Positions 2,675 through 51,942 of a stretch of 64,000 nucleotides of DNA are shown piece after piece. The DNA is taken from positions 30,014-94,013 of the IMG/VR virus record IMGVR_UViG_3300010885_014582. The stretch is one strand, 5' to 3'. The notes below the pieces were generated by a model, which saw only the letters and a list, made by a program, of their open reading frames with translations, was not told where the DNA came from and ran no database searches. The first letter of the stretch is position 1. Each line of letters starts with the position of its first letter. The DNA comes from a virus. Made by a program: the position numbers and the translations under genes.

Positions 2675-4242
2675 TAGTTGCTACCAGTCAATCCACCAAC
2701 CATGTCAAAGTTAACAGCAATACGACTACTAATTTTGTCAGTAAAACATGGGAGTTGTGTTGCACTAACAGTCACATTGTTTACTGTACTTACAGTTGCT
2801 GGTGTTGAATCGTATGTTGTACTCAAGTTTGTAAGTATCACATAGTCAACTCCAGTGACAGATAGTGCTGCTCGGTACACTTCTCCAACAGTGAATATCT
2901 GTCCAAAAGACACATTATCAAAGGACAGCAAATCTCTAATTGCTTTGTCAACACCTGCTTGTACATAACTTTGTACATAATTAGTTTTTACATAAACTTG
3001 AATACCAACATAAATAGGTGTGCACTCAATGTACCGATCGACGCTTCCATGGTTAGCAGGGTTTACGACTGAAGCAGTTACACCCAACATTGACCTGGTT
3101 GAGAAGTACAACTCAATAGATTCTGTAGTATTCGCTGGTATTTCGATGATTACTTTGGTTGTACCAGAAGTAATTGGTTCAGGTGGGTAACTACTTTGAT
3201 AGGGAACTGGGTAGATAGTAACGGTTGGAGATGAGTATGTTGCTGTTGCTTTACTTACTGAGGGAATCTGTAAAGTTAAATCTTTATAGTCTTGTAATGA
3301 AACGGCTCGGTCTTGTGTTCGATATAGCCGAGACACATTGGATTTGATTGAACTAATTGATTCAGCATCAGCACCACCACTGGTTGCTCCAGACGACACA
3401 ACACTTATATAAGTGGACTGTGGTGAAGATGATACAAGTTTAATACCATTAGTTTGAAGGTTTCCATCGGATCCAGCAGTACTGCGGTAAGAGGCTGTAA
3501 TAGTTGCATTAGTAGTTGGCACTGTTCCGTTAAACCCATTACCAAATATGATTTGTGTGTATCCGTCAGAAGTACTTTTGGCAGTAAAAACTTTATCTAA
3601 ATAGTTAGCAGATGACAATTGTGCGACATAAGTGTACTCAACTGCTGAAGGCACACCACTAACAAGTGGTCCTTCGTAGACAAGAATGCTAATGCTGTTA
3701 ATGTCAACATTTGTTTTTAACAAAGAAAACTTTTGGTTAGTAAAACCAGCACTGGTACCAATTAGTTCATTAAAAACTAATGAACCTTGAATGACAGAAC
3801 CAGTTGCTTGTGTGGTAGTCACTAAATCTAAGGCAGGTAAATCATTAGCAAGGTAGAAATCATATTCGTTTCCATCAGCATCATAACCTTTGAAGGTAGT
3901 AAATTGTGGCACTGTGTAGGTTGTGGCACCAGCAGGTACTGAGTTTAATTTAACAGTTACTTGCCCACGAGATGCACGAGGTGATGCGGGGGCATAGTCC
4001 ATTAAGTTAGCAATTGCTAAAACTGAATCACGCTGTGTTGCAGTTTCTAAGAAAGTTTCTCCAGCAGCACGGTCAACATAAAAGTGAAGGACATCACCCA
4101 TGTACGCCCAAAGATCAACAAACATGTTTCCAAATTCGGAGGCGTCAGTGCCATCCCATTCTGGAATAGTCTTAGCGGCACGATTGATTAAATCTTGCCT
4201 GATTGATAAAAAATCTCTACTGGTGTAGTCAAATGTAGCCAT
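2674..4242 (-). CDS. Baseplate J-like protein
   Basis: 522 residues. The N-terminus (MATFDYTSRDFLSIRQDL, then ...GNMFVDLWAYMGDVLHFYVDRAAGETFLETA) is the typical opening of baseplate J proteins (P2 gpJ, T4 gp6 relatives). The central part has repeated β-rich segments and the C-terminal part has the SVSLQDYKDL-type region (here RAVSLQDYKDLTLQI). It forms the wedge of the contractile-tail baseplate. The gene lies between the gp25-like wedge and the gpI-like gene, the classical order. Confidence 0.88.
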   Translation of the reverse strand: MATFDYTSRDFLSIRQDLINRAAKTIPEWDGTDASEFGNMFVDLWAYMGDVLHFYVDRAAGETFLETATQRDSVLAIANLMDYAPASPRASRGQVTVKLNSVPAGATTYTVPQFTTFKGYDADGNEYDFYLANDLPALDLVTTTQATGSVIQGSLVFNELIGTSAGFTNQKFSLLKTNVDINSISILVYEGPLVSGVPSAVEYTYVAQLSSANYLDKVFTAKSTSDGYTQIIFGNGFNGTVPTTNATITASYRSTAGSDGNLQTNGIKLVSSSPQSTYISVVSSGATSGGADAESISSIKSNVSRLYRTQDRAVSLQDYKDLTLQIPSVSKATATYSSPTVTIYPVPYQSSYPPEPITSGTTKVIIEIPANTTESIELYFSTRSMLGVTASVVNPANHGSVDRYIECTPIYVGIQVYVKTNYVQSYVQAGVDKAIRDLLSFDNVSFGQIFTVGEVYRAALSVTGVDYVILTNLSTTYDSTPATVSTVNNVTVSATQLPCFTDKISSRIAVNFDMVGGLTGSN

Positions 4243-14430: not shown

Positions 14431-14967
14431 TCAGAGTTGAGGTAGGGTAGAAGGCCAAGGAAGATTCTGGGATGAGGTGGCAGTCGGACCCACATCAAAA
14501 GGCATTTCCTGATTGATGTATACCTCAATACCTTCAACGACGAGAATGACATCATCAGATGCTCGTCCTCTGACACGGTAAGAAGTTACTGAAAAATAAC
14601 GACCATCATAGAAGAACATATCGTTAAGGTGACCACGGTACTCATAGGGGGTAGTAACCCCAGCATCCCTAAAGTCCTGGATGGACGCCACGAAGTTAGT
14701 TAATTGGACAGCCTGACGACCTTCAGGGATGGCACGCTTCTGATCTTCAGCCTCGGTAATCATCAGGACTGGTACTACCACTCCCTTTTTGTACTTGCGA
14801 CCACCAGTTCCAGGCACACCCTCGTCGTAGACATCATCGTAGACAGATGCCGTTGTGGTGTTTGTACCCAGCGGTGTGAACTCAAACCATACAATAGACT
14901 CACCGTAGGCTTGCTGGTACCTACGGTAGTGCTTCCTAATGCTGGCTAATTCTCTCCGAATTTCCAT
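14431..14967 (-). CDS. Head-tail connector/stopper protein
   Basis: 178 residues, beginning in a TAATG overlap with the adaptor gene. The N-terminal helix (MEIRRELASIRKHYRRYQQAY) is followed by a β-rich body. The protein lies in the neck cluster between adaptor and terminator, so a head-closure role is likely. No motif allows a firm family assignment. A 64-base gap follows and holds no gene. Confidence 0.55.
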   Translation of the reverse strand: MEIRRELASIRKHYRRYQQAYGESIVWFEFTPLGTNTTTASVYDDVYDEGVPGTGGRKYKKGVVVPVLMITEAEDQKRAIPEGRQAVQLTNFVASIQDFRDAGVTTPYEYRGHLNDMFFYDGRYFSVTSYRVRGRASDDVILVVEGIEVYINQEMPFDVGPTATSSQNLPWPSTLPQL

Positions 14968-15785
14968 TAAAAGTAAGATTCACTAGTGTATGCAGTTGGA
15001 GGAACCCCTTCGATGAATACATCCTCCCGCAATGGTTCGTCTTGTTCTTCAATAAGGATATGACCTTCTGTGTCTTCTTTGAAAATGCGCTCCAGAGGAC
15101 CGTACTCGCCAAGTTCTTTACCCACATACAGTGGTACATAGCGGTTAGTTGTGCGTGAGATACGGCGAAGGCTGAACTGCTCGATACGCTCAGGACCAAT
15201 GTTGAGGTTATTGGCGTGTTTGCGGTACTCAACTTCCCATGCTTGGACAAGGCTTTGGAGCATACGGAAACGCTGAGAACCAGGGATGTGAATGGACTCA
15301 GAAGTCATTACATCGATGTCACGGGCATATTCTGTCATAAGTGACTGTAGTGCCTCTACAAGCGCTCCCAGACCCACTACATCCAATACTGCGGCGCTTG
15401 CCTGCTCTAGAGGAATCTTAATAGTTGGTTTGTGGAAGTTAATTGAACGCTCTGCGTAAAACTCAAGATCTTGGGGAAGAATCCACTCATAGTAATAACC
15501 TTCAACCATGATGGTTGTATTAGAAGGTGGGGTTCCTGCAAGGCGCATAATACCATTACGGTTATCGATGCTGTATTGAGAAGTAGTGAGTTGTGTAACA
15601 ACACCCGAAGTTACCGTCGCAACCCACAAAGTCGTTGAGTCAATGTTTACTTGACCCAGTTCATAGGTGCGACCGATGGTATCAAAAGAGACCTGAAAGA
15701 ACTTAGGAAAGTCACGAAGATAGTTTCGGGCTAACTGGACAGTGTGTTCCAGAACGGTTAGACCACTACTAGTTGTTCCAGCCAT
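14967..15785 (-). CDS. Head-tail adaptor protein
   Basis: 272 residues. An N-terminal helix with AGTTSSGLTVLEHTVQLARNYL, a β-rich centre and a long helix near 150-185 are visible, and the C-terminus is acidic. It is the first gene of the neck cluster. It is coupled by TAATG overlaps on both sides. Assignment is by position and general shape. Confidence 0.55.
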   Translation of the reverse strand: MAGTTSSGLTVLEHTVQLARNYLRDFPKFFQVSFDTIGRTYELGQVNIDSTTLWVATVTSGVVTQLTTSQYSIDNRNGIMRLAGTPPSNTTIMVEGYYYEWILPQDLEFYAERSINFHKPTIKIPLEQASAAVLDVVGLGALVEALQSLMTEYARDIDVMTSESIHIPGSQRFRMLQSLVQAWEVEYRKHANNLNIGPERIEQFSLRRISRTTNRYVPLYVGKELGEYGPLERIFKEDTEGHILIEEQDEPLREDVFIEGVPPTAYTSESYF

Positions 15786-34875: not shown

Positions 34876-35676
34876 TTAACCTCTTTTAAAGATTTTACTA
34901 AAAATACCTTTTTTGGTATCTTCTTCTTCTAAAGCCTTGTCGACTCGTATGCGTTCACGCCTGTATGGTGCGGCTGTACCTTCGGCTGGCATGATGTGTC
35001 CAAAGCCAAAACCTTTGTTCGCTACATATTTATATGTAGATTCATCAGCCAAAATTACTTTATTAATGTTGTTCTTGCGCTCAAATGGCACCAAATGTGC
35101 CAGAGGTGTTCCATATTTAATGGAGAATTCTTTATCACCAGTTATGTTTAAAACAATATTAGCGGTGTGGTAAAAGTCGGTGTGAACAATAGCGGGCATT
35201 ATTGTGTAGTTAGGGTTTGGTTCCCATAACACTGGCAAGAATAACACCGACCACCCTGGCGCTGTCTCTATTTTCCACGGATTTACTATTTTTGGAAACC
35301 CTGCTTGACTAAATTCAGAAGACCGTATACTTGTTACAGGGCACTCACCTGTTGACTCATACGGAAAACCTTGAATTACTGAAATATCATTATTTTCAAC
35401 TTGAAAACCAAAGTTGTCTGCTCGTGTTTCCCAGTCCCCGCTAGGTCCTGGCCTAAACTTATAGTTTGTCCACGCAGGAATGGTTATTCCAGTGCTGAAG
35501 TAATCATTAATCCCAGCGCAACGGCGAAGAGAGCCTTCACCTTTATGGATACGCTTGAACCACGGGCGCTGTGTTTCTACCGAGTTTTTGTACGGAGGCA
35601 TCTCATTAAGCCTGTTATCGAGAGGGGTAATCCTGATTTCTCCAGGTTTTACTTTTTCTTGCTTATTCATTTTCAT
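34876..35676 (-). CDS. Hypothetical protein next to halogenase, DUF6065-like pattern
   Basis: 266 residues from the ATG at 35676, which overlaps the halogenase stop (ATGA). The middle (ETAPGWSVLFLPVLWEPNPN, AIVHTDFYH, FSIKYGTPLAHLVPF) resembles a family of β-rich proteins with the GWS-F-x-P pattern (DUF6065-like) that I associate with such operons; this link is tentative. Likely a partner in the oxygenase/halogenase chemistry. Confidence 0.6.
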   Translation of the reverse strand: MKMNKQEKVKPGEIRITPLDNRLNEMPPYKNSVETQRPWFKRIHKGEGSLRRCAGINDYFSTGITIPAWTNYKFRPGPSGDWETRADNFGFQVENNDISVIQGFPYESTGECPVTSIRSSEFSQAGFPKIVNPWKIETAPGWSVLFLPVLWEPNPNYTIMPAIVHTDFYHTANIVLNITGDKEFSIKYGTPLAHLVPFERKNNINKVILADESTYKYVANKGFGFGHIMPAEGTAAPYRRERIRVDKALEEEDTKKGIFSKIFKRG

Positions 35677-37175
35677 AGCCAATCGTCGTCTACTTTACTA
35701 AGTTGTTGTAGGGCTAGAGCATGGTCAATCAATTCATGATTGTGCCGTTCTTCTCGCATTTGGGCAACAACATTTTCTGTTTCTTGTCTGATGTTTAGTC
35801 TATCAAGAACCCTCGTAGATGGCTCTACTGAGAAAACTCCTTGCCCTTGAGCAACATGCGCCATATGGGGGGTCGCAAACAACTCTGCATGAAGGTGTGG
35901 GACATCGTTTCTAACAGGTGGTCGTTCTGACCATAGATCAAGCAACTCTTGGAGTTCATGGTTTATTGGCATATCCGCCATTGCCGACCAGAATGGGGTG
36001 TCTCGTCGATCACTGTAGTAATGCAATCTAATCATTGTGAGAATATTACGCATAACCTCACTAAACGCCTTATTAAAGTGCTTTTGAGATTTTGTATACG
36101 AAGAATCGTATGACGCCATGTATGGAATCATCATTTTAACTTGTTGGATAGTTGAGCCAATACTCGTTGCTTCTAAAGGCTCGACAAATGATGATGCCAA
36201 TCCAACTGCTACACAGTTGTTTTTCCAAGGCTCATCGAGATACCCAGCGTCAAACTTAATAGACCTGTGCTTATCTATTTTGTATCCAGATATTTCTTCG
36301 GCTTCTTTAACAATCTCTTCTTCCGTGGCAAACTGGGAAGAATACACATAACCATTTCCTCGTCGAGATTGGGTAGGTATTTCCCACACCCATCCGTTCG
36401 TTGCAGCAATTGCACGGGTGTATGGACGAATCTCTCCTGATGGATCAGACTCTGTAGGGAAGGCAATAGAGGAATCACACAAAAGATACTTATTAAATGA
36501 GTTCCACTTAACATCTCCTAGGTTATTCATTAATACTCGTCTAAAACCAGAAGCATCAAACCAAAAGTCAGCGTTTACTACGCTTCCCTCTTCTGTTTTT
36601 ACAGAAGTAATATTCCCATTTTCTTCTTGATTAACTTCAGTTACTGTTCCTTCAATAAACTTAATGCTTCGTTTAAAACACAATTCAGTAAAATACTCGT
36701 TTAATTTGAAGGTATCAAAGTGGTACTGGTTAGTGTTGCGGTGAAGCCCAAGAACCCTAATTTGGTTACGAACAAGCCCTACGCTGGTTGTTTGGTTTGT
36801 AAACAACCTTTCATTCTCTAGGAAACTTGCATAGGTGGCGTGCACTCCCCACCCAAATATTTCATCAACATTTCCTACACTATGGAAGTACCTAGGGATG
36901 TTTTCTGTCCATCCCTCAAACCGAATCCCATATTTATGAGTTGCTCCAGTAGAAACAAGCATGTCCTCAAGAGGAATATCACAATGTTTCATGAACTCTG
37001 ACCAGTGCTCAGTGCTACCTTCTCCAACGCCAATAATGCCAATATCTGAAGATACAACGACAGTTATTTCTGACATTGGGAACGCCTTGCGTAAAAGTAA
37101 CGCTGAAACTAACCCTGCGGTGCCAGCACCGACTATCCCTATAGATAACTGATGAGTAAATTGTTTCTGATTCAT
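35673..37175 (-). CDS. Flavin-dependent tryptophan halogenase-like enzyme
   Basis: 500 residues from the ATG at 37175 (ATGA overlap with the oxygenase). FAD-binding GAGTAG at 16-21; GVGEGST at 49-55; THKYGIRF places Lys81 where PrnA has its catalytic Lys; WVWEIP at 262-267 is the halogenase WxWxIP signature; SFVEPLEAT near 329-337 contains the conserved Glu. All key motifs are kept, so an active FADH2-dependent halogenase is likely. It needs reduced flavin; no flavin reductase is seen in the window. The substrate could be Trp or an aromatic residue of a protein. Confidence 0.9.
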   Translation of the reverse strand: MNQKQFTHQLSIGIVGAGTAGLVSALLLRKAFPMSEITVVVSSDIGIIGVGEGSTEHWSEFMKHCDIPLEDMLVSTGATHKYGIRFEGWTENIPRYFHSVGNVDEIFGWGVHATYASFLENERLFTNQTTSVGLVRNQIRVLGLHRNTNQYHFDTFKLNEYFTELCFKRSIKFIEGTVTEVNQEENGNITSVKTEEGSVVNADFWFDASGFRRVLMNNLGDVKWNSFNKYLLCDSSIAFPTESDPSGEIRPYTRAIAATNGWVWEIPTQSRRGNGYVYSSQFATEEEIVKEAEEISGYKIDKHRSIKFDAGYLDEPWKNNCVAVGLASSFVEPLEATSIGSTIQQVKMMIPYMASYDSSYTKSQKHFNKAFSEVMRNILTMIRLHYYSDRRDTPFWSAMADMPINHELQELLDLWSERPPVRNDVPHLHAELFATPHMAHVAQGQGVFSVEPSTRVLDRLNIRQETENVVAQMREERHNHELIDHALALQQLSKVDDDWL

Positions 37176-37747
37176 TGAAACCAAGTTACCATAGAATATT
37201 TGGTTCCACTCGTAACGGGGTGTGCAATGTGCATATACGGAAAGTTGCTAGGAAACAATATTACCGAACCAGCATCTAAGGACACTGTTACATCTAAGTT
37301 TGGAAACTCCAAATGACCACCCTCTTCGGCTGCACCCAAACATGCAATTGCACTAAACACCCGTCGACTGTCTGGGGAGTGATCGTAGTGGGCGTGGTAT
37401 TCAGCAAGCCCAGAATACTTTAAAACTGATATGAGTTCATGACCTGCTCCAGGAAGTTGGTACTCCTCTGCATAGTCATTTACTACTTTTATAAAAGGAT
37501 TATAAATTGCTTCCCTGAATAACTGAGACAACCCAGTGGTTTGGTAAGGTGGAAGCAGAGTAGTCAGCATGCAGGAAAGTGATGTCCTGTGTTGACCAAT
37601 TCTCCCGTTGCCGACTAGAGAAGTATCCCAAGATAGATCTTCGCCAAAGTTGTCTTCTATGTTTTTCTCTAGGGCTTTAATAAACTCTGTTGGTTCAAGC
37701 GCATCTCTATATACAGAGATACATAGACCTGGTTTTTCTACAATCAT
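37172..37747 (-). CDS. 2-oxoglutarate/Fe(II) oxygenase, P4H-like
   Basis: 191 residues. Iron ligands fit HAHYD (His120-x-Asp122) and the distal His176 in AHPVTSG, with Lys183 able to bind 2-oxoglutarate. It is a double-stranded β-helix dioxygenase of the prolyl-4-hydroxylase type that would hydroxylate a side chain or small molecule. It overlaps the preceding and following genes by four bases each (ATGA), so expression with the halogenase is linked. Confidence 0.88.
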   Translation of the reverse strand: MIVEKPGLCISVYRDALEPTEFIKALEKNIEDNFGEDLSWDTSLVGNGRIGQHRTSLSCMLTTLLPPYQTTGLSQLFREAIYNPFIKVVNDYAEEYQLPGAGHELISVLKYSGLAEYHAHYDHSPDSRRVFSAIACLGAAEEGGHLEFPNLDVTVSLDAGSVILFPSNFPYMHIAHPVTSGTKYSMVTWFQ

Positions 37748-38166
37748 GATACTTCAAACTTTCCTTCTTGTATAACCCCATGGAGGGAGGAACTTACTAC
37801 GAAACTGTAGATTCCTATCTCGTTAAACCTATCACGGTACTTAACTACATGGCTTTCTTTAAGTTTTGGAGTTAATTCTATTTGGGTGCCAGTAGCACCA
37901 TCTTGGTTGACAACACACTTTAAATCTTTTGGGAACACAATAAATTCATTGGTGTAGTCAATTGGTTGGATAAACCCAACTTCTACAATTTTTTTGTAGT
38001 CAATTGCATGTTTTTCTGGTATTTGAACTACACAAATATCTGTTTCTGAGTCTTCCTCAGTACCAATTCGAACAGGTAGTTGTGTTTCTTTGGCTAGTGC
38101 CAGTGCTTCTTCTGGTATTTTTTCGTCTATGTATAAAGACGCAGGTACATGAATTAATCGTTTCAT
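37744..38166 (-). CDS. Hypothetical protein, first gene of halogenase operon
   Basis: 140 residues. It is soluble; the N-terminus MKRLIHVPASLYIDEKIPE and a β-rich C-terminal half are seen. It begins a six-gene operon with ATGA overlaps. TATCAT lies six bases before the ATG, a leaderless start. Function not recognised. Confidence 0.65.
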   Translation of the reverse strand: MKRLIHVPASLYIDEKIPEEALALAKETQLPVRIGTEEDSETDICVVQIPEKHAIDYKKIVEVGFIQPIDYTNEFIVFPKDLKCVVNQDGATGTQIELTPKLKESHVVKYRDRFNEIGIYSFVVSSSLHGVIQEGKFEVS

Positions 38167-44027: not shown

Positions 44028-44429
44028 TTACGAGAAGTAGGCTTTTCCGCCAAAACTGGACGAAAATGCGATGGAAACTTGATTCACTGATATATATGAT
44101 ACATCACCTTCGACCACTGACCCGCCGCTGTCAATCACAGACACAGCGGGAAAGAAACCCAAACCATGAGTCACGATCCAAGTAGATGCAGAAACACTTT
44201 GGGTATGGACATACTGACCTGCCATTGGTAAAACAAAATTAATTGTTTGAGCGGGGGCAACCCCTGTAAGGGTCACGGCTGGGCTTATACCAGTTGCTAC
44301 AGTGCCTACCGCTAGGATGTTTGGTGGACCAGCAACACCAGGATCACTGACCTCAATTACTGAGTTTCGTGATGGAGAGGAGACAACTACCGACTTGCGG
44401 TTCTCCCTAGTGACTTCTACAGTACTCAT
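44028..44429 (-). CDS. Fibre tip-like protein (133 aa)
   Basis: 133 residues. The C-terminal half (ASTWIVTHGLGFFPAVSVID, ...FSSSFGGKAYFS) resembles knob domains of phage fibres (W-x-x-x-H-G-L-x-x-x-P pattern). It overlaps the upstream stop as ATGA. It probably forms a fibre end or cap. Confidence 0.68.
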   Translation of the reverse strand: MSTVEVTRENRKSVVVSSPSRNSVIEVSDPGVAGPPNILAVGTVATGISPAVTLTGVAPAQTINFVLPMAGQYVHTQSVSASTWIVTHGLGFFPAVSVIDSGGSVVEGDVSYISVNQVSIAFSSSFGGKAYFS

Positions 44430-45136
44430 ACAGGTGGTGCTGAGACCGCTGGTTCAACGACTAAAGTTCCTGATGACAAACAATCCCAATCCCCTGCTGA
44501 GTCTTGTACAAAGAGATCGTAAGAATATACACCTGAAGCCACATTATTTGTATTAGAAATGTGCAACTCTAGGGTTGCTCCAGTTGCTGGAGCCAAATAA
44601 CCACGCTTGTTGGCTGGAGTCAAGCCAATTACCGTTGACTCAGATGGTTTAGGTGAATACCAGCGTAAATCCACAACAGTGGTGCCAGTAGCGGTCTTAG
44701 CCTGCATGAATGCGCTTTGGACAGCAATAACGACCCCATCTGCGTCTTTCCATGTAAAGGTACGGCGATAGTCCGTGTATTGCTTGTAACGGATTTCCAT
44801 AGCGTCTGAGTCCTCCAGAGGGGTGATATTGTTCAAAGCGGATACAGAAATTGTACCCTGTGATACAGGCTGCTGAACTCCATTGATAGTGGCAAGAACA
44901 TCATAGAACAGGTCACCCAATGGAAGATCTTGTGTCTCTTCTGCTGTCAATGATAGGGCAATACCATTTTCTGATGTCAAAGTAGTGGTTAACTCAGCAA
45001 CCGTGATTGCCCCTGTACGAACATAGGCACGAGCATCAGTAGGGCGTTGTAGGTGATGCGTTCTCTTATCTTTTACGATAATCAAGCGCTCCCATGGTAA
45101 ACCCCGAACTAGGGTGTAATTAACTGTGCGAACCAT
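44426..45136 (-). CDS. Fibre/upper-baseplate protein (236 aa)
   Basis: 236 residues made of two similar β-sandwich halves (RGLPWERLIIVKDKRTHH at the start; YRRTFTWKDADGVVI in the middle), each of the kind seen in phage BppU-like adaptor proteins. It starts the fibre operon and has a leaderless TAGAAT box. Role by context: connects fibres to baseplate. Confidence 0.62.
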   Translation of the reverse strand: MVRTVNYTLVRGLPWERLIIVKDKRTHHLQRPTDARAYVRTGAITVAELTTTLTSENGIALSLTAEETQDLPLGDLFYDVLATINGVQQPVSQGTISVSALNNITPLEDSDAMEIRYKQYTDYRRTFTWKDADGVVIAVQSAFMQAKTATGTTVVDLRWYSPKPSESTVIGLTPANKRGYLAPATGATLELHISNTNNVASGVYSYDLFVQDSAGDWDCLSSGTLVVEPAVSAPPV

Positions 45137-45143
45137 AACTACT

Positions 45144-45149
45144 ATTCTA
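45144..45149 (-). promoter_or_regulatory. Leaderless -10 box at start of fibre operon
   Basis: TAGAAT read on the minus strand, seven bases before the ATG at 45136, with no ribosome site between. Confidence 0.55.
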
Positions 45150-45162
45150 CTTCAGTATGGGT

Positions 45163-45327
45163 TTACTCGCCGCCTTTAAACAGAGCAGATATGAGGTGAA
45201 CTGTTAGTGCAGCACCACTTATCCAGAGACCATAGGTTTGTACTTTGCCAGACAAAGTAATTAAAACTAGTCCTGTACCAGCGATGGTAAAAGCCAAACC
45301 TTGCAGTTCTTCAAAAAATCTATTCAT
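45163..45327 (-). CDS. Small membrane protein (54 aa), holin-like
   Basis: 54 residues, MNRFFEELQGLAF then two hydrophobic stretches (about 10-22 and 32-48) and a short charged tail. The ATG overlaps the stop of the Thr-rich surface protein (TAATG), so the two are made together. Could be a holin or a membrane partner of the surface protein. Confidence 0.65.
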   Translation of the reverse strand: MNRFFEELQGLAFTIAGTGLVLITLSGKVQTYGLWISGAALTVHLISALFKGGE

Positions 45328-46625
45328 TATTTCTTTCTACGGGATTTATTGTCGGATGACTGGGAACCGCTTGAAGACGAAGAAACTGGAACTACTGGTG
45401 CCATAAATAATACCCCAGTTGCGGCTACCAATACTTTTCTCTGCCCCACATTGATCTTCGAGCCAATCGGCACATACTTATTAAACTTGCCCCCAAAGAT
45501 ATTAATCTGTTCTTCAAAAGCAGCCTTCACTTCCTCAGGGGCGTTTTGGACTGCTTCAATCAGTTGATCCGCTTGTGCGTCGGACAAATTAGATACTTCA
45601 ACGGCAGCAAAGATTTCAGTTGCTTGTTCTGATGTAACCGACTGGAGGACCTCTGGGTTAGTGGCAAGGGCGGTTGCTTCATCAGCACTGACGCCCTGCT
45701 CGATGATGTTATCCACAGCCGCTGCGATCTCAGATTGTGGGAGGTTGTTAATGGCACCCAATAAAGCGGTCACTTCTGGGTCAACTTGTACAAGTTCTTG
45801 TACAGGTGGGACTGTAGTGGTTGTGGTAGTCGTAGGAAGCACCGTAGAGGTCGTAGAGGTCGTAGAGGTACTTGTAGTGGTCGTGGTGGGCACAGGAGCC
45901 AAAGTTGTCGTGGTAGTGCTTGTGGTTCCTGTCACAGGTGATATCGTGGTAGTAGTCTCAGGAACTGTCGTGGAGGTAGTCGATGTTGTTGTGGGTAATA
46001 CTGTTGTTGTCGGCGGCTCTGTTGTCGTTGTCGTTGTCGAAGAAGTGGTGGTAGTTGATGTCGTGGTTGTGGTTGGTGCCAGTGTTGTTGTGGTTGTGGA
46101 TGTTGTGGAAGTCGTGGTAGATGTCGTCGTGGAGGATGTGGTTGTGGTTGGTGCCAGCGTTGATGTTGTCGTGGGTGGCACGGTCGTTTGAGGAACAGTT
46201 GTTTGAGGAATGGTAGATGTGGTCTGAGTAGACCCAACACCATTGAAACCTAGTTCGTACCGTAAGTTCCATCCCCCATTTGTACGCCAAGCATTGGGGT
46301 CACCACAACAAATACCAGCCCTCAGTCTGTAACGACCAGCAGGTACTTCAATTGAAATGTACGACTGCAAGCCAATAGAGTCGTCATTGGCTGCAAGTTG
46401 CGTTCCTGCTTCGTTGTATAGCCACAACATAGGATCTGAGTTGTACCCAGTGATCATATAGGTTTGGGCAATAAACTGTGTTGTCTCACTGTAATCAAAC
46501 CAAACATCTGTTGGCTCTGTGATTATTAGGTTTTCGGCTTTAGCGGGGGAAGACGGATAAAGACCCAAAAATGTGAGAACTACCCACAAAAAACAACTTG
46601 TAACCCGCACACGGGATTTACGCAT
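45327..46625 (-). CDS. Secreted Thr-rich (mucin-like) membrane-anchored surface protein
   Basis: 432 residues. A signal peptide (1-30, ending PAKA) is followed by a β-sandwich of PPC-like pattern (about 35-125; DPMLWLYNEAGTQL, VPAGRYRLRAG, with CC), a Thr/Ser/Pro-rich linker of about 140 residues, a helical Ala/Glu-rich part, then a hydrophobic segment (VLVAATGVLFMAPVVPV) and a basic tail. This is a host-type cell-surface architecture. It may block superinfection or alter the envelope. Leaderless TAAACT lies upstream. Confidence 0.8.
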   Translation of the reverse strand: MRKSRVRVTSCFLWVVLTFLGLYPSSPAKAENLIITEPTDVWFDYSETTQFIAQTYMITGYNSDPMLWLYNEAGTQLAANDDSIGLQSYISIEVPAGRYRLRAGICCGDPNAWRTNGGWNLRYELGFNGVGSTQTTSTIPQTTVPQTTVPPTTTSTLAPTTTTSSTTTSTTTSTTSTTTTTLAPTTTTTSTTTTSSTTTTTTEPPTTTVLPTTTSTTSTTVPETTTTISPVTGTTSTTTTTLAPVPTTTTTSTSTTSTTSTVLPTTTTTTTVPPVQELVQVDPEVTALLGAINNLPQSEIAAAVDNIIEQGVSADEATALATNPEVLQSVTSEQATEIFAAVEVSNLSDAQADQLIEAVQNAPEEVKAAFEEQINIFGGKFNKYVPIGSKINVGQRKVLVAATGVLFMAPVVPVSSSSSGSQSSDNKSRRKK

Positions 46626-46631
46626 TAATTA

Positions 46632-46637
46632 AGTTTA
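46632..46637 (-). promoter_or_regulatory. Leaderless -10 box for the Thr-rich surface protein
   Basis: TAAACT on the minus strand, TAATTA then the ATG at 46625 (six bases). Confidence 0.62.
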
Positions 46638-46640
46638 TCA

Positions 46641-47087
46641 CTACTTGTATTTAACGCCAGTTGGACCTAGTCGTACTCCACTCATACCTGTTGATACATC
46701 TTCACCTGTATCTTCATCAGTCATTGACCCTGGGCGGATTTTTAGTGTTTTATCAGCAGGTTCGATTGGTACTGGATGAATGGTACCTTCAGCAAAAGTA
46801 TTTCGTGTTTTAGCACCTGTAGAACTAGAGAGGTGATTTTCAAGTTCCCTTTTGTTTACTTTCATTTTTACATCTTTTAAGTAGATGTCATCTGAATGAC
46901 CAACTACTTTTCCAGAAACAAGAACACTGTAGATAGGGCGACCAAGTGCTGTAGTTGCAGGGGTGTGCATATGAACTTGTGCTTTTGTACCTACAAGATC
47001 ACCAAGACCTATCTCACTAAGGATGTTTACAGAAACACCACGAACTTTGTGTGTTTCTTTAAACTGAGGTCCATCAGGTATTGGCAT
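46641..47087 (-). CDS. Hypothetical protein (148 aa)
   Basis: 148 residues, soluble. The start MPIPDGPQF matches the start of the 48407-48967 protein (MPKPSGPQF), so the two may share an N-terminal element. The middle has VHMHTPATTALGRPIY. Not recognised. TAATAT lies six bases before the ATG. Confidence 0.6.
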   Translation of the reverse strand: MPIPDGPQFKETHKVRGVSVNILSEIGLGDLVGTKAQVHMHTPATTALGRPIYSVLVSGKVVGHSDDIYLKDVKMKVNKRELENHLSSSTGAKTRNTFAEGTIHPVPIEPADKTLKIRPGSMTDEDTGEDVSTGMSGVRLGPTGVKYK

Positions 47088-47093
47088 GATTCA

Positions 47094-47099
47094 ATATTA
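47094..47099 (-). promoter_or_regulatory. Leaderless -10 box (gene at 47087)
   Basis: TAATAT on the minus strand, TGAATC then the ATG at 47087. Confidence 0.6.
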
Positions 47100-47164
47100 C
47101 CAGAGACACGAAGACGGACCGCCCTCAAGCAGCCCGCCTCGGTGGGTAAGAACCTCATTAATAA

Positions 47165-47196
47165 TTATACACACATGTGAATAAACATGTGGATAA
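47165..47196. promoter_or_regulatory. Cluster of three DnaA boxes
   Basis: TTATACACA (47165-47173, plus), TTATTCACA (minus, 47176-47184) and TTATCCACA (minus, 47188-47196) all match TTATNCACA. AT-rich attaataattat lies just before. They fill the gap between two accessory genes, directly after a stop codon. Possible origin element or DnaA-binding decoy. Confidence 0.6.
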
Positions 47197-47592
47197 CTAC
47201 TCAGTATCAGGATGTCCTGAGTACATACCTTCTGTGCCCTCAACATGCTCGTCATGGTTTGGCTCATATGCAGTACGGTTGTAATACTTATCTTCAAACT
47301 GTGAAGCCAAGTGTGTAGCGGCTGGGTGGATTGTCAAACCCCAGTTAATAAATGATTTAGGATAACGGTCATATACATGTTGCATTAATGCTTTAGCGTG
47401 ACCTTTTCCTTCACGATGGCTTTTTAAATAGTCAATATCAATTTGGGAGTTGCCGTCTTCATTGGTGTAATTATCAAAAGAAACACGAGCAAGGTTTCCA
47501 CTATCCATGTTGGATAATGTCAGGGAATGTGAACCTTTATCAAGTTTGCTATGGGTTACATGGAATTGACTACTCAAGTTATTGCGATTCAT
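47197..47592 (-). CDS. GNAT-like acetyltransferase (131 aa)
   Basis: 131 residues from the ATG at 47592 (TGATG overlap with the zinc-ribbon gene). DIDYLKSHREGKGHAKALMQHV carries the R-x-G-x-G/A acetyl-CoA loop of motif A, and WGLTIHPAATHLASQFEDKYY fits the motif B end. It would acetylate an unknown target. The C-terminus is acidic. Confidence 0.65.
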   Translation of the reverse strand: MNRNNLSSQFHVTHSKLDKGSHSLTLSNMDSGNLARVSFDNYTNEDGNSQIDIDYLKSHREGKGHAKALMQHVYDRYPKSFINWGLTIHPAATHLASQFEDKYYNRTAYEPNHDEHVEGTEGMYSGHPDTE

Positions 47593-47723
47593 CAATAAAC
47601 TCCCTCACAACAAGAGTCCCTAGAGCCACAAGATTCGCACCGATAATGAGCGTGTTCAGGGCGCATTTTACCGCCACACCAAACACATTGCTCAGACAGG
47701 TCACAGGACTTTTCATCTGTCAT
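47592..47723 (-). CDS. Tiny zinc-ribbon protein (43 aa)
   Basis: 43 residues with CVWCGG and CESCGSRDSCC, suited to bind one zinc. The ATG overlaps the stop of the upstream gene (ATGA) and its TGA overlaps the next ATG. Too short for most gene finders. Possibly a transcription or RNA-binding adaptor. Confidence 0.72.
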   Translation of the reverse strand: MTDEKSCDLSEQCVWCGGKMRPEHAHYRCESCGSRDSCCEGVY

Positions 47724-47875
47724 GAAACTACTAGGACAACATCCCAAGAACTAGCCGCAATTTGGATAGCCTTGGAGACAGTTACATTCTTGTAACCACT
47801 GGCACGGGCAAGGTTTGTTGCAATCTTAATTGCGTCAGACATAAGGACAGTGCTAACGGGGTAAGTAACGAACAT
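47720..47875 (-). CDS. Small hypothetical protein (51 aa)
   Basis: 51 residues from the ATG at 47875; an inner ATG (MSDAIKIATNL) would give 40 residues. The second half (KAIQIAASSWDVVLVVS) may be a helix and strand. It is the first gene of a three-gene coupled unit with the zinc ribbon and the GNAT protein. Function unknown. Confidence 0.55.
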   Translation of the reverse strand: MFVTYPVSTVLMSDAIKIATNLARASGYKNVTVSKAIQIAASSWDVVLVVS

Positions 47876-47909
47876 GAGTATTTTCTATCACACTTATTGT
47901 GTAATAAAT

Positions 47910-48140
47910 TTAGTACTGTGTTCCTGGGTTTGCCACTGCTTGAGAGATCGAGCGGTGCAGTTCACACTGACCACATGGGCAATCTCCTGCGATAGCACCG
48001 AGAAAGGCCGCTTGGTTGCGCTCTGCACGAGTAAAGCGCCCACCGTTCCATCCACCTTTGCTGTCTGCGGGGATGGCTGTGAGTGAGGAACCACTTTCGT
48101 CACTTCCAGACTTTGAACTTGATTTTCCTAAAATAGCCAT
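47910..48140 (-). CDS. Hypothetical protein with CxxC pair (76 aa)
   Basis: 76 residues. The Ser/Gly-rich start is followed by GGRFTRAERNQAAFLGAIAGDCPCGQCELHR. One CPCGQC cluster is present. No family recognised. TAAACT lies six bases before the ATG. Confidence 0.62.
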   Translation of the reverse strand: MAILGKSSSKSGSDESGSSLTAIPADSKGGWNGGRFTRAERNQAAFLGAIAGDCPCGQCELHRSISQAVANPGTQY

Positions 48141-48146
48141 GGTCTT

Positions 48147-48152
48147 AGTTTA
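48147..48152 (-). promoter_or_regulatory. Leaderless -10 box (gene at 48140)
   Basis: TAAACT on the minus strand, AAGACC then the ATG at 48140. Confidence 0.62.
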
Positions 48153-48179
48153 CCTCATCTAAAGATATGAGTTTTAAAA

Positions 48180-48407
48180 TCAGTTCTTTTTATCTACTTT
48201 GTTGAAGACATCGTTGATCTCTTCAATGCTGAGTTTTCCGTCATCCATGTAGGCTCGTGCGAGACCTTCAACAACAAAACTGACTCCACCGATACCAGCC
48301 ATCAACATGGCCTTCCATAGTGGTATTCCTGCGATAGCGCCTGCTCCAACCACTGAAAGACCAGTGGCAGCAAAGGCAGCCAGGATTCGGAGCAAAATCT
48401 GTTTCAT
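48180..48407 (-). CDS. Holin-like membrane protein
   Basis: 75 residues. Hydrophobic segment 4-29, second 31-50, then an acidic tail (MDDGKLSIEEINDVF) with an EF-hand-like look. This arrangement is common in actinophage holins. It starts in a TAATG overlap with the ADP-ribosyltransferase-like gene. Confidence 0.65.
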   Translation of the reverse strand: MKQILLRILAAFAATGLSVVGAGAIAGIPLWKAMLMAGIGGVSFVVEGLARAYMDDGKLSIEEINDVFNKVDKKN

Positions 48408-48967
48408 TATTTTCTCTTACGACGCTTCACATACTGAACAGCACCACCATCACCAATTTGTGATTTTGGAACCATCCATGAAATACTTCCCACATCTTCA
48501 CGACGGTTTCGGTATGGGGTAACAATTCCTTTTTCAGCAACACCTTTGGTGTCAGGTGCGGTTTCTTCAAACAACCCAGGTTGTTTTCCTGACATACGCT
48601 CTTGGAAATGGGCATACAACTCGCCAGCCTCTCCACCCATGACTTCATTGGTGTCACCTTTTTGGGCGCTAATTTCTGCTACTTCACTATCTATTGCATG
48701 ATCCATTTTTAATATTGAAGGAGATTCACCAAAAGTAACTGGTGACACTGATGGGTGATTAACATTAATCCTGTACTCATGGATATTGTTTCTCATGGGC
48801 CAATCTTGCGCTGATTCCCTTGTACCCATATGGAGGATGTCTGGGTGAACATTGTCTCCTTCTTTGAAACTATGAAACACAGGGTGTGCATGTTGAAGGT
48901 GTGGAGGGGTCGCTTCATTAGAAGAATGGAACACACTTATAAATTGAGGTCCAGAAGGCTTTGGCAT
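48407..48967 (-). CDS. ADP-ribosyltransferase-like protein (186 aa)
   Basis: 186 residues. FHSSNEATPP and ILHMGTRESA fit the His/Thr motifs of ART-like folds. Near the C-terminus PYRNRREDVGSISW matches PYKNEREDKGSTSY of the protein at 50551-51021, which marks them as relatives. It could attach ADP-ribose to host proteins; catalytic residues are not certain. TATAAT lies six bases before the ATG. Confidence 0.6.
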   Translation of the reverse strand: MPKPSGPQFISVFHSSNEATPPHLQHAHPVFHSFKEGDNVHPDILHMGTRESAQDWPMRNNIHEYRINVNHPSVSPVTFGESPSILKMDHAIDSEVAEISAQKGDTNEVMGGEAGELYAHFQERMSGKQPGLFEETAPDTKGVAEKGIVTPYRNRREDVGSISWMVPKSQIGDGGAVQYVKRRKRK

Positions 48968-48973
48968 CCTTCA

Positions 48974-48979
48974 ATTATA
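48974..48979 (-). promoter_or_regulatory. Leaderless -10 box (gene at 48967)
   Basis: Consensus TATAAT on the minus strand, TGAAGG then the ATG at 48967. Confidence 0.65.
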
Positions 48980-48981
48980 CT

Positions 48982-49155
48982 TCAACCGCCGTTGCGGTAA
49001 TAACCTTTGCCTACAAGGTTGAATGTAGGGGCGCTAAAGACTTTCTTCATTTCTTCTGAGCATGCTGTACAGATAAGAATAGGCTCTCTGTCATGGATTG
49101 ACCTATCTTCTTCATAGAAGTGGTCATTAGGGCACTTGTATTGGTATATAGGCAT
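48982..49155 (-). CDS. FmdB-type zinc-ribbon protein (57 aa)
   Basis: 57 residues from the ATG at 49155. MPIYQYKCPNDH then CTACSEEMKKVFSAP gives the two CxxC-type pairs and the M-P-x-Y-x-Y-x-C start of the FmdB/regulatory zinc-ribbon family. A longer start would add six residues without support. It ends in GKGYYRNGG, common in this family. Confidence 0.78.
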   Translation of the reverse strand: MPIYQYKCPNDHFYEEDRSIHDREPILICTACSEEMKKVFSAPTFNLVGKGYYRNGG

Positions 49156-49162
49156 ATTGCCT

Positions 49163-49168
49163 ACTCTA
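49163..49168 (-). promoter_or_regulatory. Leaderless -10 box (gene at 49155)
   Basis: TAGAGT on the minus strand, seven bases before the ATG at 49155. It overlaps the stop codon of the upstream gene. Confidence 0.5.
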
Positions 49169-49894
49169 CACAAAACCTTCCATACCTGGGAGAAATTGGT
49201 TACTTAAACCTTTAGGTGTCACAGGGGTGCTACTGCGCTTCCTGCTATTGCGTAAAGACTGTCGGACATCATTCTGTGCAACCATGACTTCACCTTGTGT
49301 CACTGGTTGCATTTTCTCATGTGCATAGTCAATCTCGTTTAGTCCTGCCCAGCGCTCTACTTTGTCAATGTCATTTTTGGGTTCTGCCTCTGTATTTAAG
49401 GGATTTGTCTGGACCAATCCCTTACTGGCAGCATTTTTAACTAATTTACTGCTATGTGGAGATAAATCAGAGTCTGCCATTAAAACTTCAGGTTTATGCT
49501 TATTTTTAGCAAGTTGTGCCATTGTCAAGGCTGTGGATGACATAGACGGGTCTGCAAACATACGGGTTATGTGTGTAGTTGAAGGGATTGTGTCAAAAAG
49601 AGTATCTTGTTGGAAATAAGGATGATTTGTGTTTCTTCCAGCGGCAAAAGAATCGCTGTCAGGGTCAGTAGCCCAGTTTTCTGTATATAACTTGTCTGCT
49701 TTCTTATGAGCATGTCCAGAAAAGCCACTTGGCATAGTATTATCGAAGTTCGGTAAGAATTTTGGTGGGTGATAGGTAGCACCTAACTCAGCCACTTTCC
49801 GATTACCTTGCTCATCTGACTCGCCAAAAGCAATGTAGGACTGGTATACCCTGCCATCAGGGGCTTTTGCGTCGTTACTGTAGTAATCAGCCAT
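49166..49894 (-). CDS. Hypothetical protein (242 aa), possible divergent GNAT
   Basis: 242 residues from the ATG at 49894. N-terminal β-part (GRVYQSYIAFGESDEQG), then a segment ADSDLSPHSSKLVKNAASKGL that resembles the last helix of GNAT proteins, but the acetyl-CoA loop is not clear. The C-terminus is basic and polar. Function unknown. Confidence 0.55.
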   Translation of the reverse strand: MADYYSNDAKAPDGRVYQSYIAFGESDEQGNRKVAELGATYHPPKFLPNFDNTMPSGFSGHAHKKADKLYTENWATDPDSDSFAAGRNTNHPYFQQDTLFDTIPSTTHITRMFADPSMSSTALTMAQLAKNKHKPEVLMADSDLSPHSSKLVKNAASKGLVQTNPLNTEAEPKNDIDKVERWAGLNEIDYAHEKMQPVTQGEVMVAQNDVRQSLRNSRKRSSTPVTPKGLSNQFLPGMEGFV

Positions 49895-49899
49895 CACCA

Positions 49900-49905
49900 A
49901 TAATA
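49900..49905 (-). promoter_or_regulatory. Possible leaderless -10 box (gene at 49894)
   Basis: TATTAT on the minus strand, five bases before the ATG at 49894. Spacing is one base short of the usual. Confidence 0.4.
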
Positions 49906-49956
49906 CCTTAAATGGTCAAACGCAAATTTTTTTACTTCTTACTTGTCATGACGGCG

Positions 49957-50541
49957 CTAAGAGCCACTACCAGCCCTCTTTACACCAGCGTTCTTCTTAG
50001 GATTACGACTAAACATGACCTTCATATCCGCACGACCTGGGTTTTTCTCGTTGATGTTGTCAACAATGTTCATAGTTGCCTCATGCATAGCCTTACCCAT
50101 ATTAATTGTGGATGAAGGGTCGGTAGTGCGATCCAAATGGTTGACCATCTCTGCTGCAATACCACGCTGTTGGTGGTCTGGGTGAACATTCATGAAGCCA
50201 ATATTGGTATCAGCCGCATGGTAGGTCCTGTCTTGCTCGATATAAGACCCATCTGGCTGTTCTACATTGTATATGAACCCTCTTTTAGTCATAGGTTCAC
50301 GATAAAAGTCTGTATAACCGATTAAACCTTGTGTTCCTGTCTCACTGGGTCGTACATAACCCTTTTCAATGGTGAATTTACGGGTCTCATTCGGGTCAAT
50401 CACCTGTAGACGGCGTGGTTCTCCATAGGATTTGAGTGGGTGGTCATATGCATGGTCTTGAGGCATAGGAAATTCCATGTAGTGGCGACCTACATGGTCT
50501 GTAAATTGAGCACCAAGGTGTGGGATTGGGTTATCAGCCAT
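49957..50541 (-). CDS. GNAT-like acetyltransferase (194 aa)
   Basis: 194 residues. Motif A is GFMNVHPDHQQRGIAAEMVNH, with Q-x-R-G-I-A as the acetyl-CoA loop; the following MGKAMHEATMNIVDNI fits the next helix. N-terminal β-strands include RRLQVIDPNETRKF. The C-terminus is basic. Targets unknown; in phages such enzymes can act on host proteins. Confidence 0.72.
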   Translation of the reverse strand: MADNPIPHLGAQFTDHVGRHYMEFPMPQDHAYDHPLKSYGEPRRLQVIDPNETRKFTIEKGYVRPSETGTQGLIGYTDFYREPMTKRGFIYNVEQPDGSYIEQDRTYHAADTNIGFMNVHPDHQQRGIAAEMVNHLDRTTDPSSTINMGKAMHEATMNIVDNINEKNPGRADMKVMFSRNPKKNAGVKRAGSGS

Positions 50542-50547
50542 ATAACT

Positions 50548-50553
50548 AGTTTA
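50548..50553 (-). promoter_or_regulatory. Leaderless -10 box (gene at 50541)
   Basis: TAAACT on the minus strand, AGTTAT then the ATG at 50541. It overlaps the end of the next upstream gene. Confidence 0.62.
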
Positions 50554-51021
50554 CTTCTTAAATGGCCCGCCAGCCATTACAGATATAGTACCCATAAATG
50601 CCTTTTCTGAGTCAGCATCCGCATTGAGTAGGAATTGTTGTGTGTTCAAATGCTTAACATGATTACCAACGAATGCAGCAGGAACCACATAAGAAGTTGA
50701 ACCTTTGTCTTCACGCTCATTTTTGTAAGGGTAAATTCGTGTTTGACTATGTTCAGGGACTGTTCTGCTCTCATCTTCTGAAAACATGGGGTCTTCCCAC
50801 ACTCTCCTAGATGTTGGAGCAGAATCAGATATCTCATAAGCATGTATTTGACCGATACCCACTTGGGCTTTACCCGTACCTTCGGGGTCCCAGTCCACAC
50901 CATGCTCAATTTCATCGTCTAGACGGTCATTGGCGGCTTTGTGCGTGCCTGCGTGGAAGGGGTAACCATGTTCATGTGGTGCTTGACCACTCAAAGTGCC
51001 GTGGTAAACAATCTTTCCCAT
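50551..51021 (-). CDS. ADP-ribosyltransferase-like protein (156 aa)
   Basis: 156 residues. Starts MGKIVYHGTLSG, with the H-G-T of ART-like folds, then PFHAGTHKAANDRL, IHAYEI and PYKNEREDKGSTSYVVP, shared with the 48407-48967 protein. The order of motifs is the same in both. It may ADP-ribosylate a host protein. TAAACT lies seven bases before the ATG. Confidence 0.62.
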   Translation of the reverse strand: MGKIVYHGTLSGQAPHEHGYPFHAGTHKAANDRLDDEIEHGVDWDPEGTGKAQVGIGQIHAYEISDSAPTSRRVWEDPMFSEDESRTVPEHSQTRIYPYKNEREDKGSTSYVVPAAFVGNHVKHLNTQQFLLNADADSEKAFMGTISVMAGGPFKK

Positions 51022-51026
51022 AACTA

Positions 51027-51392
51027 CTAGTTTACTCTACGGGTATAGGCTCTACGAATAACACGATAACCCTCAGGAGAGGTGTGTTGTCTCAACGAAC
51101 CGTCACGAAACTTGGTCTCTGTCCATTCAGCGGTTTCTGGGTTGACTGGCTCTACTTGATATACCCGTGTGCGGGCATCAGGACGGTCATTCATTATCTT
51201 GGAGACACCACCGTAGTACTTAGCGGTCTCTAGGTCATCGGTGGCATAGGCAAGGTTAGGGTCATTCTTGCTCTTGGCACCCCAGTTGCGTGTTGCACCT
51301 GTCTGTGAGGGAGGGAGAATCAGGTCACCAGTCTTGAACTTACGGCTTGTCCCATGAAAGAGGGTCTCATTGACATGTTCCGATGCTGACAT
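51027..51392 (-). CDS. Arr-like ADP-ribosyltransferase (121 aa)
   Basis: 121 residues. TLFHGTSRKFKTGDLILPP, LAYATDDLETAKYYG and RVYQVEPVNPETAEWTE follow the order of rifamycin ADP-ribosyltransferase (Arr): H-G-T, the Y-x-T-x-x-x-x-A strand-helix, and the V-x-P end. Length also fits Arr. Family role is NAD-dependent ADP-ribosylation; here the target may be a host protein rather than an antibiotic. TAAACT lies six bases before the ATG. Confidence 0.75.
   Translation of the reverse strand: MSASEHVNETLFHGTSRKFKTGDLILPPSQTGATRNWGAKSKNDPNLAYATDDLETAKYYGGVSKIMNDRPDARTRVYQVEPVNPETAEWTETKFRDGSLRQHTSPEGYRVIRRAYTRRVN
51029..51034 (-). promoter_or_regulatory. Leaderless -10 box (gene at 51021)
   Basis: TAAACT on the minus strand, AGTAGTT then the ATG at 51021 (seven bases). 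Confidence 0.6.
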
Positions 51393-51398
51393 CTATCT

Positions 51399-51404
51399 AG
51401 TTTA
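51399..51404 (-). promoter_or_regulatory. Leaderless -10 box (gene at 51392)
   Basis: TAAACT on the minus strand, AGATAG then the ATG at 51392. Confidence 0.62.
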
Positions 51405-51408
51405 CTAC

Positions 51409-51930
51409 CTAGTAACCACGCTCTTGCTTGAGTTTGGCTGCATGTGCTTCGACATCTGATGGCTTGAACTGGACAGACAACTTGTGTGTACCACCTTCGG
51501 TAGCCCATGGGAACCATCCTCTGACATGATCAGGGTGTATACCCTCTACTGGGCGTGTTCCCTGTGCCATCTCCTGTAGTCCCTTGACGGTCCCAACCAC
51601 GGCTGACCTCAGTGTTCGTCCAGCAGGAACATTAAACTCATGAAATGGTTGGTCACTGGCTGAACTAATCAACTTAACCCTGGCGTAAGCCTCATCCCAA
51701 ACTGGGGTACCTTTTTTAGTCGTGCCTTTTTGGCGGGGAGTACTGTGTTCTACATGGGCTTGTATCATTGAAGAGTTACCATATGGAACATCCAGGATGG
51801 CATGGGAAGCAATTGTTGGGTTTTCAAAGTCATCTTCTGATGATTGCCACTGGTCGTCATGCTCTGGACCTGTGGATAGGCGGGCGACAATATGGTTATG
51901 TCCTGAATTAAAGGCTTCGTTACGACTCAT
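51409..51930 (-). CDS. Hypothetical protein (173 aa)
   Basis: 173 residues, soluble, with many His. First gene leftward of the control region. Segments HNHIVARLSTGPEHDDQW and FNVPAGRTLRSAVVGTVKGL are notable; FHEFNVPAG may relate to ART-like folds of the neighbours, but this is not clear. TATACT lies six bases before the ATG. Confidence 0.6.
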   Translation of the reverse strand: MSRNEAFNSGHNHIVARLSTGPEHDDQWQSSEDDFENPTIASHAILDVPYGNSSMIQAHVEHSTPRQKGTTKKGTPVWDEAYARVKLISSASDQPFHEFNVPAGRTLRSAVVGTVKGLQEMAQGTRPVEGIHPDHVRGWFPWATEGGTHKLSVQFKPSDVEAHAAKLKQERGY

Positions 51931-51936
51931 ATATCT

Positions 51937-51942
51937 AGTATA
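51937..51942 (-). promoter_or_regulatory. Leaderless -10 box (gene at 51930)
   Basis: TATACT on the minus strand, AGATAT then the ATG at 51930. First leftward promoter next to the control region. Confidence 0.62.

Follow-up and report, generated by a model that had tools for sequence, protein, structure and literature searches.

How is a gene started when no usable Shine-Dalgarno (SD) sequence stands in front of it? This question is raised by a block of minus-strand accessory genes at 44.0-52.5 kb of a 64,000-nucleotide (nt) stretch of viral DNA, referred to here as the window, which comprises bases 30014-94013 of a viral contig of 94 kb in all (IMG/VR record IMGVR_UViG_3300010885_014582). 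The element under study is the hexamer TANNNT, which resembles the -10 box of a bacterial promoter and lies a few bases before the start codons of these genes. A -10 box ending 6 nt before a start codon puts the transcription start on the start codon itself. In bacteria, TANNNT about 12 bp upstream is a mark of leaderless genes, a type that accounts for over 20% of the gene complement in Actinobacteria (PMC3160421). Our answer, held with a probability of about 0.83, is that the block consists of about eleven -10-only promoters of a large, uncultured actinobacterial myovirus, predicted to give leaderless mRNAs. The promoters are well supported by the position of the motif, the absence of SD sites and conservation in related phages, although they are predicted from sequence.

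Motif counts in the window

A sequence-only reading of the window had listed thirteen minus-strand genes with TANNNT ending 5-7 nt before the start codon and no usable SD, and had proposed that they form an array of leaderless promoters. All thirteen upstream regions are as it described, and the five recurrences of TAAACT that it counted are correct. The block, taken as 44.0-52.5 kb on the minus strand, has 17 starts, and 11 of them carry the motif at 5-7 nt, against about 0.6 expected from a background rate of ~3.5% per start at positions 8-25 upstream of the same starts. With this background rate floored at 5%, the enrichment has P = 4.6e-11. An SD was sought at the same eleven starts and found at none of them (0/11). 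Elsewhere in the window, virion-gene starts carry TANNNT at 5-7 nt at the background level (2/30), while the plus-strand early genes lack it (0/13) and have an SD in 11 of 13 cases. Set against dinucleotide shuffles, the loose pattern TANNNT-N5-7-ATG is weak alone, being about 2-fold enriched in the block (16 vs 7.5 expected), and TAAACT-N4-9-ATG is strong (5 vs 0.33 expected). By the block count and the TAAACT count, the motif is more frequent than chance allows.

A weight matrix was trained on the relatives only and then used to rank all ATGs of the window. All 11 block starts fall within the top 0.04-1.6%. Outside the block, the start at 32421 is marginal (1.6%) and that at 38166 ranks at 6%, with a spacing of 6 nt at each. 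The gene group at 32-43 kb shows the motif at background (P = 0.21), and the motif was not found in homologues of 38166. We therefore regard the array as largely real between 45 and 52 kb and find no support for 32421 and 38166, the two starts of the list that fall outside the block.

Conservation of the element in related phages

The window encodes a contractile-tailed phage, with sheath, baseplate, portal and major head proteins. The cultured phages closest to it belong to the BRock group of Streptomyces phages (head protein 58-60% identical, terminase ~45%). WhiB is present in 18 of 19 related records, most of which hold at least two gene copies, and this phage also carries two WhiB genes (G000 bases 1541-1741 on the plus strand and 3077-3271 on the minus strand). 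From the WhiB genes and the Streptomyces-phage relatives, the host is likely an actinobacterium; RecA is ~37% identical to that of Actinomarina-like genomes, a figure that is partly an effect of the search patterns, and no host claim is based on it. A near-match search of the block DNA against cultured phages gave no match, the protein of gene 45136 (44429-45136) has no relative that we found in cultured phages, and no family match was found for several block proteins.

The relatives provide ~2,020 distinct gene starts from 160 related loci, in which all hexamers were scanned at all distances. In this unbiased scan, TAAACT exactly 6 nt upstream occurs 37 times against 0.5 expected and is the strongest non-SD signal among the matches listed, the other leading signals being SD variants. 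TANNNT ends 6 nt upstream of 122 starts, compared with about 30 at other distances, and leaderless-type starts number 145 against 5 that carry both signals. The consensus over the strong sites, a set selected on part of the -10 core, is aGTANAcT-N6-ATG (or aGTANAAT), with information at positions -14 to -7 and no information at -35. Because an in-frame TAA at -12 may be preferred when starts are called, stop-free hexamers were tested as well: TA[CT](AA/AC/TA)T has its peak at 6 nt too (26 vs ~3 elsewhere), which rules out an in-frame-stop artefact, and there are no period-3 peaks.

The spacing is also held where the sequence around it is not. Homologues of 46625 have TANNNT at 6 nt in 12 of 25 distinct upstreams that are otherwise diverged, and they reach it with six hexamers (TAAACT, TATAAT, TACACT, TATTAT, TACAAT and TATACT); homologues of 45136 have TANNNT at 5-7 nt in 8 of 8 or 9 distinct upstreams. 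Such a fixed spacing despite diverged sequence is the expected outcome if selection keeps a promoter coupled to the start codon. The motif stands at 6 nt in both homologues of 48967 and as TAAAAT at 6 nt in those of 47087, and homologues of 49155 have TAAACT at 6 nt in L161, TAGCCT at 7 nt in L086 and an SD in the others. The sequence-only reading had suggested counting the motif in related phages. Anchored to starts, that count favours the array; over whole records it is only slightly above the control, with 33 occurrences in 19 phages against 27 in the reversed control, and for this reason we rely on the start-anchored counts. Pattern scans over the whole collection (d=6 vs d=10) are not quantitative, and the d=6 pattern has a built-in in-frame stop.

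The distinction between start modes does not follow gene class throughout. Virion and early genes had been said to carry AGGAG-type sites instead, and this stands for the early strand of the window and, among distinct upstreams of the relatives, for capsid (SD in 52/52), sheath (35/35) and tube (35/36). It fails for a conserved 272-aa virion-region gene and for terminase, which appear leaderless in 26 of 46 and 7 of 26 distinct upstreams; both are upper figures, as candidates with TANNNT at 6 nt were favoured when the starts were chosen, and by aligned starts the 272-aa gene is leaderless in 19 of 38. In the window, the GGAG of the 272-aa gene occupies the place of the relatives' aGTAAACT, which suggests that genes switch between the two start modes. 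Homologues of 48407 appear leaderless in four relatives and SD-led or coupled in others. The predicted leaderless signal thus extends beyond the accessory genes.

As proposed, each promoter would be an extended -10 element (aGTANAcT or aGTANAAT) without a -35. Host RNA polymerase with its main sigma factor, possibly aided by a phage-made regulator, would start each transcript at the start codon's first base, and host ribosomes would take the leaderless mRNA directly at its 5' AUG or GUG. Promoter and translation start would lie within ~20 bp, in places overlapping the previous stop codon, such that any frame placed behind could be expressed without a leader or an SD. Gene exchange by recombination and the timing of expression are both parts of this scheme that we infer.

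Units, terminators and gene exchange

The eleven sites and two further genes that bear on the argument are collected in Table 1.

Table 1. Positions in the window of the -10 elements of the block and of two conserved genes
Feature	Coordinates	Strand	Distance to start codon	Gene	Remark
-10 TATACT	51937..51942	-	6 nt before ATG 51930	173-aa gene 51409-51930	
-10 TAAACT	51399..51404	-	6 nt before ATG 51392	51027-51392, 121-aa Arr-like protein	top 0.04% of ATGs
-10 TAAACT	51029..51034	-	7 nt before ATG 51021	156-aa gene 50551-51021	overlaps stop codon of upstream gene
-10 TAAACT	50548..50553	-	6 nt before ATG 50541	194-aa gene 49957-50541	
-10 TATTAT	49900..49905	-	5 nt before ATG 49894	242-aa gene 49166-49894	
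-10 TAGAGT	49163..49168	-	7 nt before ATG 49155	57-aa FmdB-type zinc ribbon 48982-49155	
-10 TATAAT	48974..48979	-	6 nt before ATG 48967	186-aa gene	
-10 TAAACT	48147..48152	-	6 nt before ATG 48140	76-aa gene 47910-48140	top 0.12%
-10 TAATAT	47094..47099	-	6 nt before ATG 47087	148-aa gene 46641-47087	
-10 TAAACT	46632..46637	-	6 nt before ATG 46625	432-aa secreted Thr-rich protein 45327-46625	
-10 TAGAAT	45144..45149	-	7 nt before ATG 45136	236-aa gene 44426-45136	
Conserved 272-aa virion-region gene	14967..15785	-			GGAG site in window; aGTAAACT-N6-ATG in many relatives
Small zinc-ribbon gene, near-invariant DNA	47592..47747	-			overlaps (TGATG) hypervariable next gene; SD-type

The proteins behind these sites are diverse. 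The Arr-like protein (rifampin ADP-ribosyltransferase family) is just over the Pfam cut-off; its neighbour 50551-51021 starts with MGKIVYHGT and, by eye, possibly has a related fold. The 49957-50541 protein has weak GNAT similarity. The 45327-46625 protein, which has no family match, shows an apparent signal peptide, a conserved N-terminal domain, a conserved C-terminal part and a long Thr/Ser-rich, mucin-like stalk of variable length. The minus-strand gene 48180-48407 encodes a 75-aa membrane-like protein with a match to a nuclease-labelled PHROG and a weak one to a holin family. Outside the block, a tryptophan-halogenase family gene (35673-37184, minus strand) is related to cyanophage and Pelagibacter-phage genes.

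The accessory block had been described as self-contained single-gene units, suited to moving between genomes, and each of these two claims holds in part. Each of the 11 sites is promoter-like and a single gene lies behind 7 of them, while the sites at 48967, 48140, 46625 and 45136 each lead into a short series of genes that overlap or lie close to one another. Thus gene 48407 overlaps the stop codon of the 186-aa gene, gene 45327 overlaps that of the 432-aa gene, and the 45136 unit continues from its 236-aa gene into the coupled gene 44429 and then gene 44019. Terminator-like sites are little more frequent than in shuffled sequence (12 vs 8.0), and none was found between units on the minus strand. 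Without inter-unit terminators the units are not insulated, and their transcripts should nest instead.

A tentative alternative, compatible with the promoter array, is that the units are mobile single-gene cassettes, or morons, in which a gene and its own promoter move together. To assess it, we paired starts that share at least 70% identity over the 34 nt from -40 to -7. An unrelated gene lies downstream in 15 of 75 leaderless pairs and in 40 of 951 SD pairs; 27 of the 40 SD exceptions are one slot, and with that slot set aside the SD figure is 13/924. The compared pairs are not independent and represent about four junctions. 'gtgtctctggTAANNT' is found upstream of 47087, of an unrelated 168-aa gene and of the 432-aa gene family; 'cggcggttgaagTATAAT' precedes either 48967 or, in L086, an unrelated 140-aa gene, with the same -10; 'gatagcccTATACT' precedes either 51930 or an unrelated 54-aa gene (L089/L161), with the same -10 and a 97% identical upstream; and a near-identical promoter to that of 50541 stands in L092 before an unrelated gene. 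These junctions support gene change behind conserved, putatively leaderless promoters, and homologues that are leaderless in some phages and SD-led in others, such as those of 48407, also favour cassettes. However, replacement of genes behind a resident promoter would fit the data as well as joint movement of promoter and gene. The absence of inter-unit terminators and the multi-gene runs behind 4 of the 11 sites also speak against cassettes, as does the busy swap slot behind the zinc-ribbon gene 47592-47747: about 110 bp of near-invariant DNA is common to the window, L084, L085, L086, L089 and L091-L094, and in most of these phages the gene whose start overlaps the zinc-ribbon stop is a different one. 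This hypervariable slot with its fixed anchor is SD-type, hence a leaderless start is not required for exchange.

As a side observation, perfect parS-type sites (TGTTTCACGTGAAACA) occur in two related phages (L092 at 512 and 1073; L093 at 1690, 1720 and 2264), and in each of them a predicted leaderless TTGTAAACTT promoter follows one copy directly. The window holds no such site.

Candidate readers, known systems and meaning

Several observations weigh against the preferred reading. Within the block, the 49894 site is weaker, its homologues do not retain the motif, and relatives of 51392 are also without it. Among cultured phages, the 6-nt peak was not seen in PA6, phiC31 or BRock, and in BRock, the nearest cultured relative group, the signal stands at 1 of 54 starts. 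Marine actinobacterial genomes, which may not be those of the host, show the same 6-nt peak (160/590 starts) with TATAAT preferred; TAAACT makes up 33 of 111 phage sites vs 2 of 160 actinobacterial ones, and a G at -13 is found in 69 of 111 vs 20 of 160. The TAAACT form is phage-biased, and because this preference differs from that of the sampled actinobacteria, the sites may be read by something other than the host's main sigma factor.

It is accordingly conceivable, if doubtful, that aGTAAACT is a phage-specific class of late or middle promoter, leaderless by coincidence and read by a phage-altered host polymerase, for example with one of the two phage WhiB proteins on sigma region 4. The phage bias of TAAACT and G-13, the lack of a -35, the two WhiB genes in most related records and the finding that 396 genomes of the sampled phylum show no enrichment of AGTAAACT-N6-ATG all agree with this. 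On the other hand, the same phages also have many sites of ordinary form (TATAAT, TAAAAT or TACAAT), and the comparison genomes may differ from the real host. No sigma region-2 domain over the cut-off was found in 19 related records, and region-4 matches there are weak, partial and below the cut-off; late promoters read by a phage-encoded sigma factor find no support in these records.

It is improbable that the motif, instead of being a promoter, is a translation signal or DNA-binding site comparable to the Start-Associated Sequences of Cluster K mycobacteriophages. It does stand a few bases from the starts of a gene subset, at times around the upstream stop, but it is not SD-like, the same 6-nt peak occurs in actinobacterial genomes, and only T-12, A-11 and T-7 are fixed, as expected for sigma (in sites partly selected on the core). 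Least probable of all is chance or a start-calling artefact, in which A+T-rich spacers and stop codons before starts yield TANNNT: the loose motif's modest excess over shuffles and the in-frame TAA at -12 would allow it, yet for the block it is refuted by the stop-free control and by the spacing kept across homologues with different hexamers, and it is adequate only for 38166 and perhaps 32421.

The leaderless promoter array, which remains our preferred interpretation, belongs to a known class of mechanism; what is new is a dense phage array with a phage-biased element. The morons of lambdoid phages are accessory genes that sit among phage genes and have a promoter of their own. The units studied here share with them a promoter-like site of their own and different genes behind the same upstream and -10 between close relatives, but they have no terminator and no separate leader, and the promoter abuts the start codon. 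The TA-led genes of Actinobacteria and Deinococcus-Thermus (Zheng et al. 2011, PMC3160421) have in common with the block a TANNNT core about 12 bp upstream, no SD and a sharp distance, whereas the sites reported here are phage-borne, clustered in one accessory block and prefer aGTAAACT over TATAAT. Corndog and other Cluster O phages have predicted leaderless promoters, three per genome, with SigA-like -35/-10 pairs (PMC4351075); the predicted transcription start on the first base of the start codon is alike, but here about eleven lie close together and without a -35. The Cluster K Start-Associated Sequences, a GGGATAGGAGCCC 13-mer containing AGGAG (PMC3203893), are likewise repeated a few bases before a subset of non-structural genes, in contrast to the -10 element aGTANAcT of the block, which has no AGGAG and no SD.

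Leaderless genes are well described in actinobacterial chromosomes, and only a few predicted actinophage cases were found in open-access papers. A dense array with a fixed 6-nt spacing, kept across many uncultured actinophages, gives an annotation rule for start codons and promoters; such starts may be missed or put in the wrong place by gene-calling programs that look for an SD. It also offers the testable idea that accessory genes are gained without disturbing operons. More speculative still than a phage-specific promoter class is the combined view that -35-less aGTAAACT-N6-ATG sites form a class of their own, served by a phage-remodelled polymerase (e.g. through WhiB), whose 20-bp junctions act as landing sites for exchanged genes. 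If true, unrelated genes would be expressed at once upon exchange, building up a modular accessory region.

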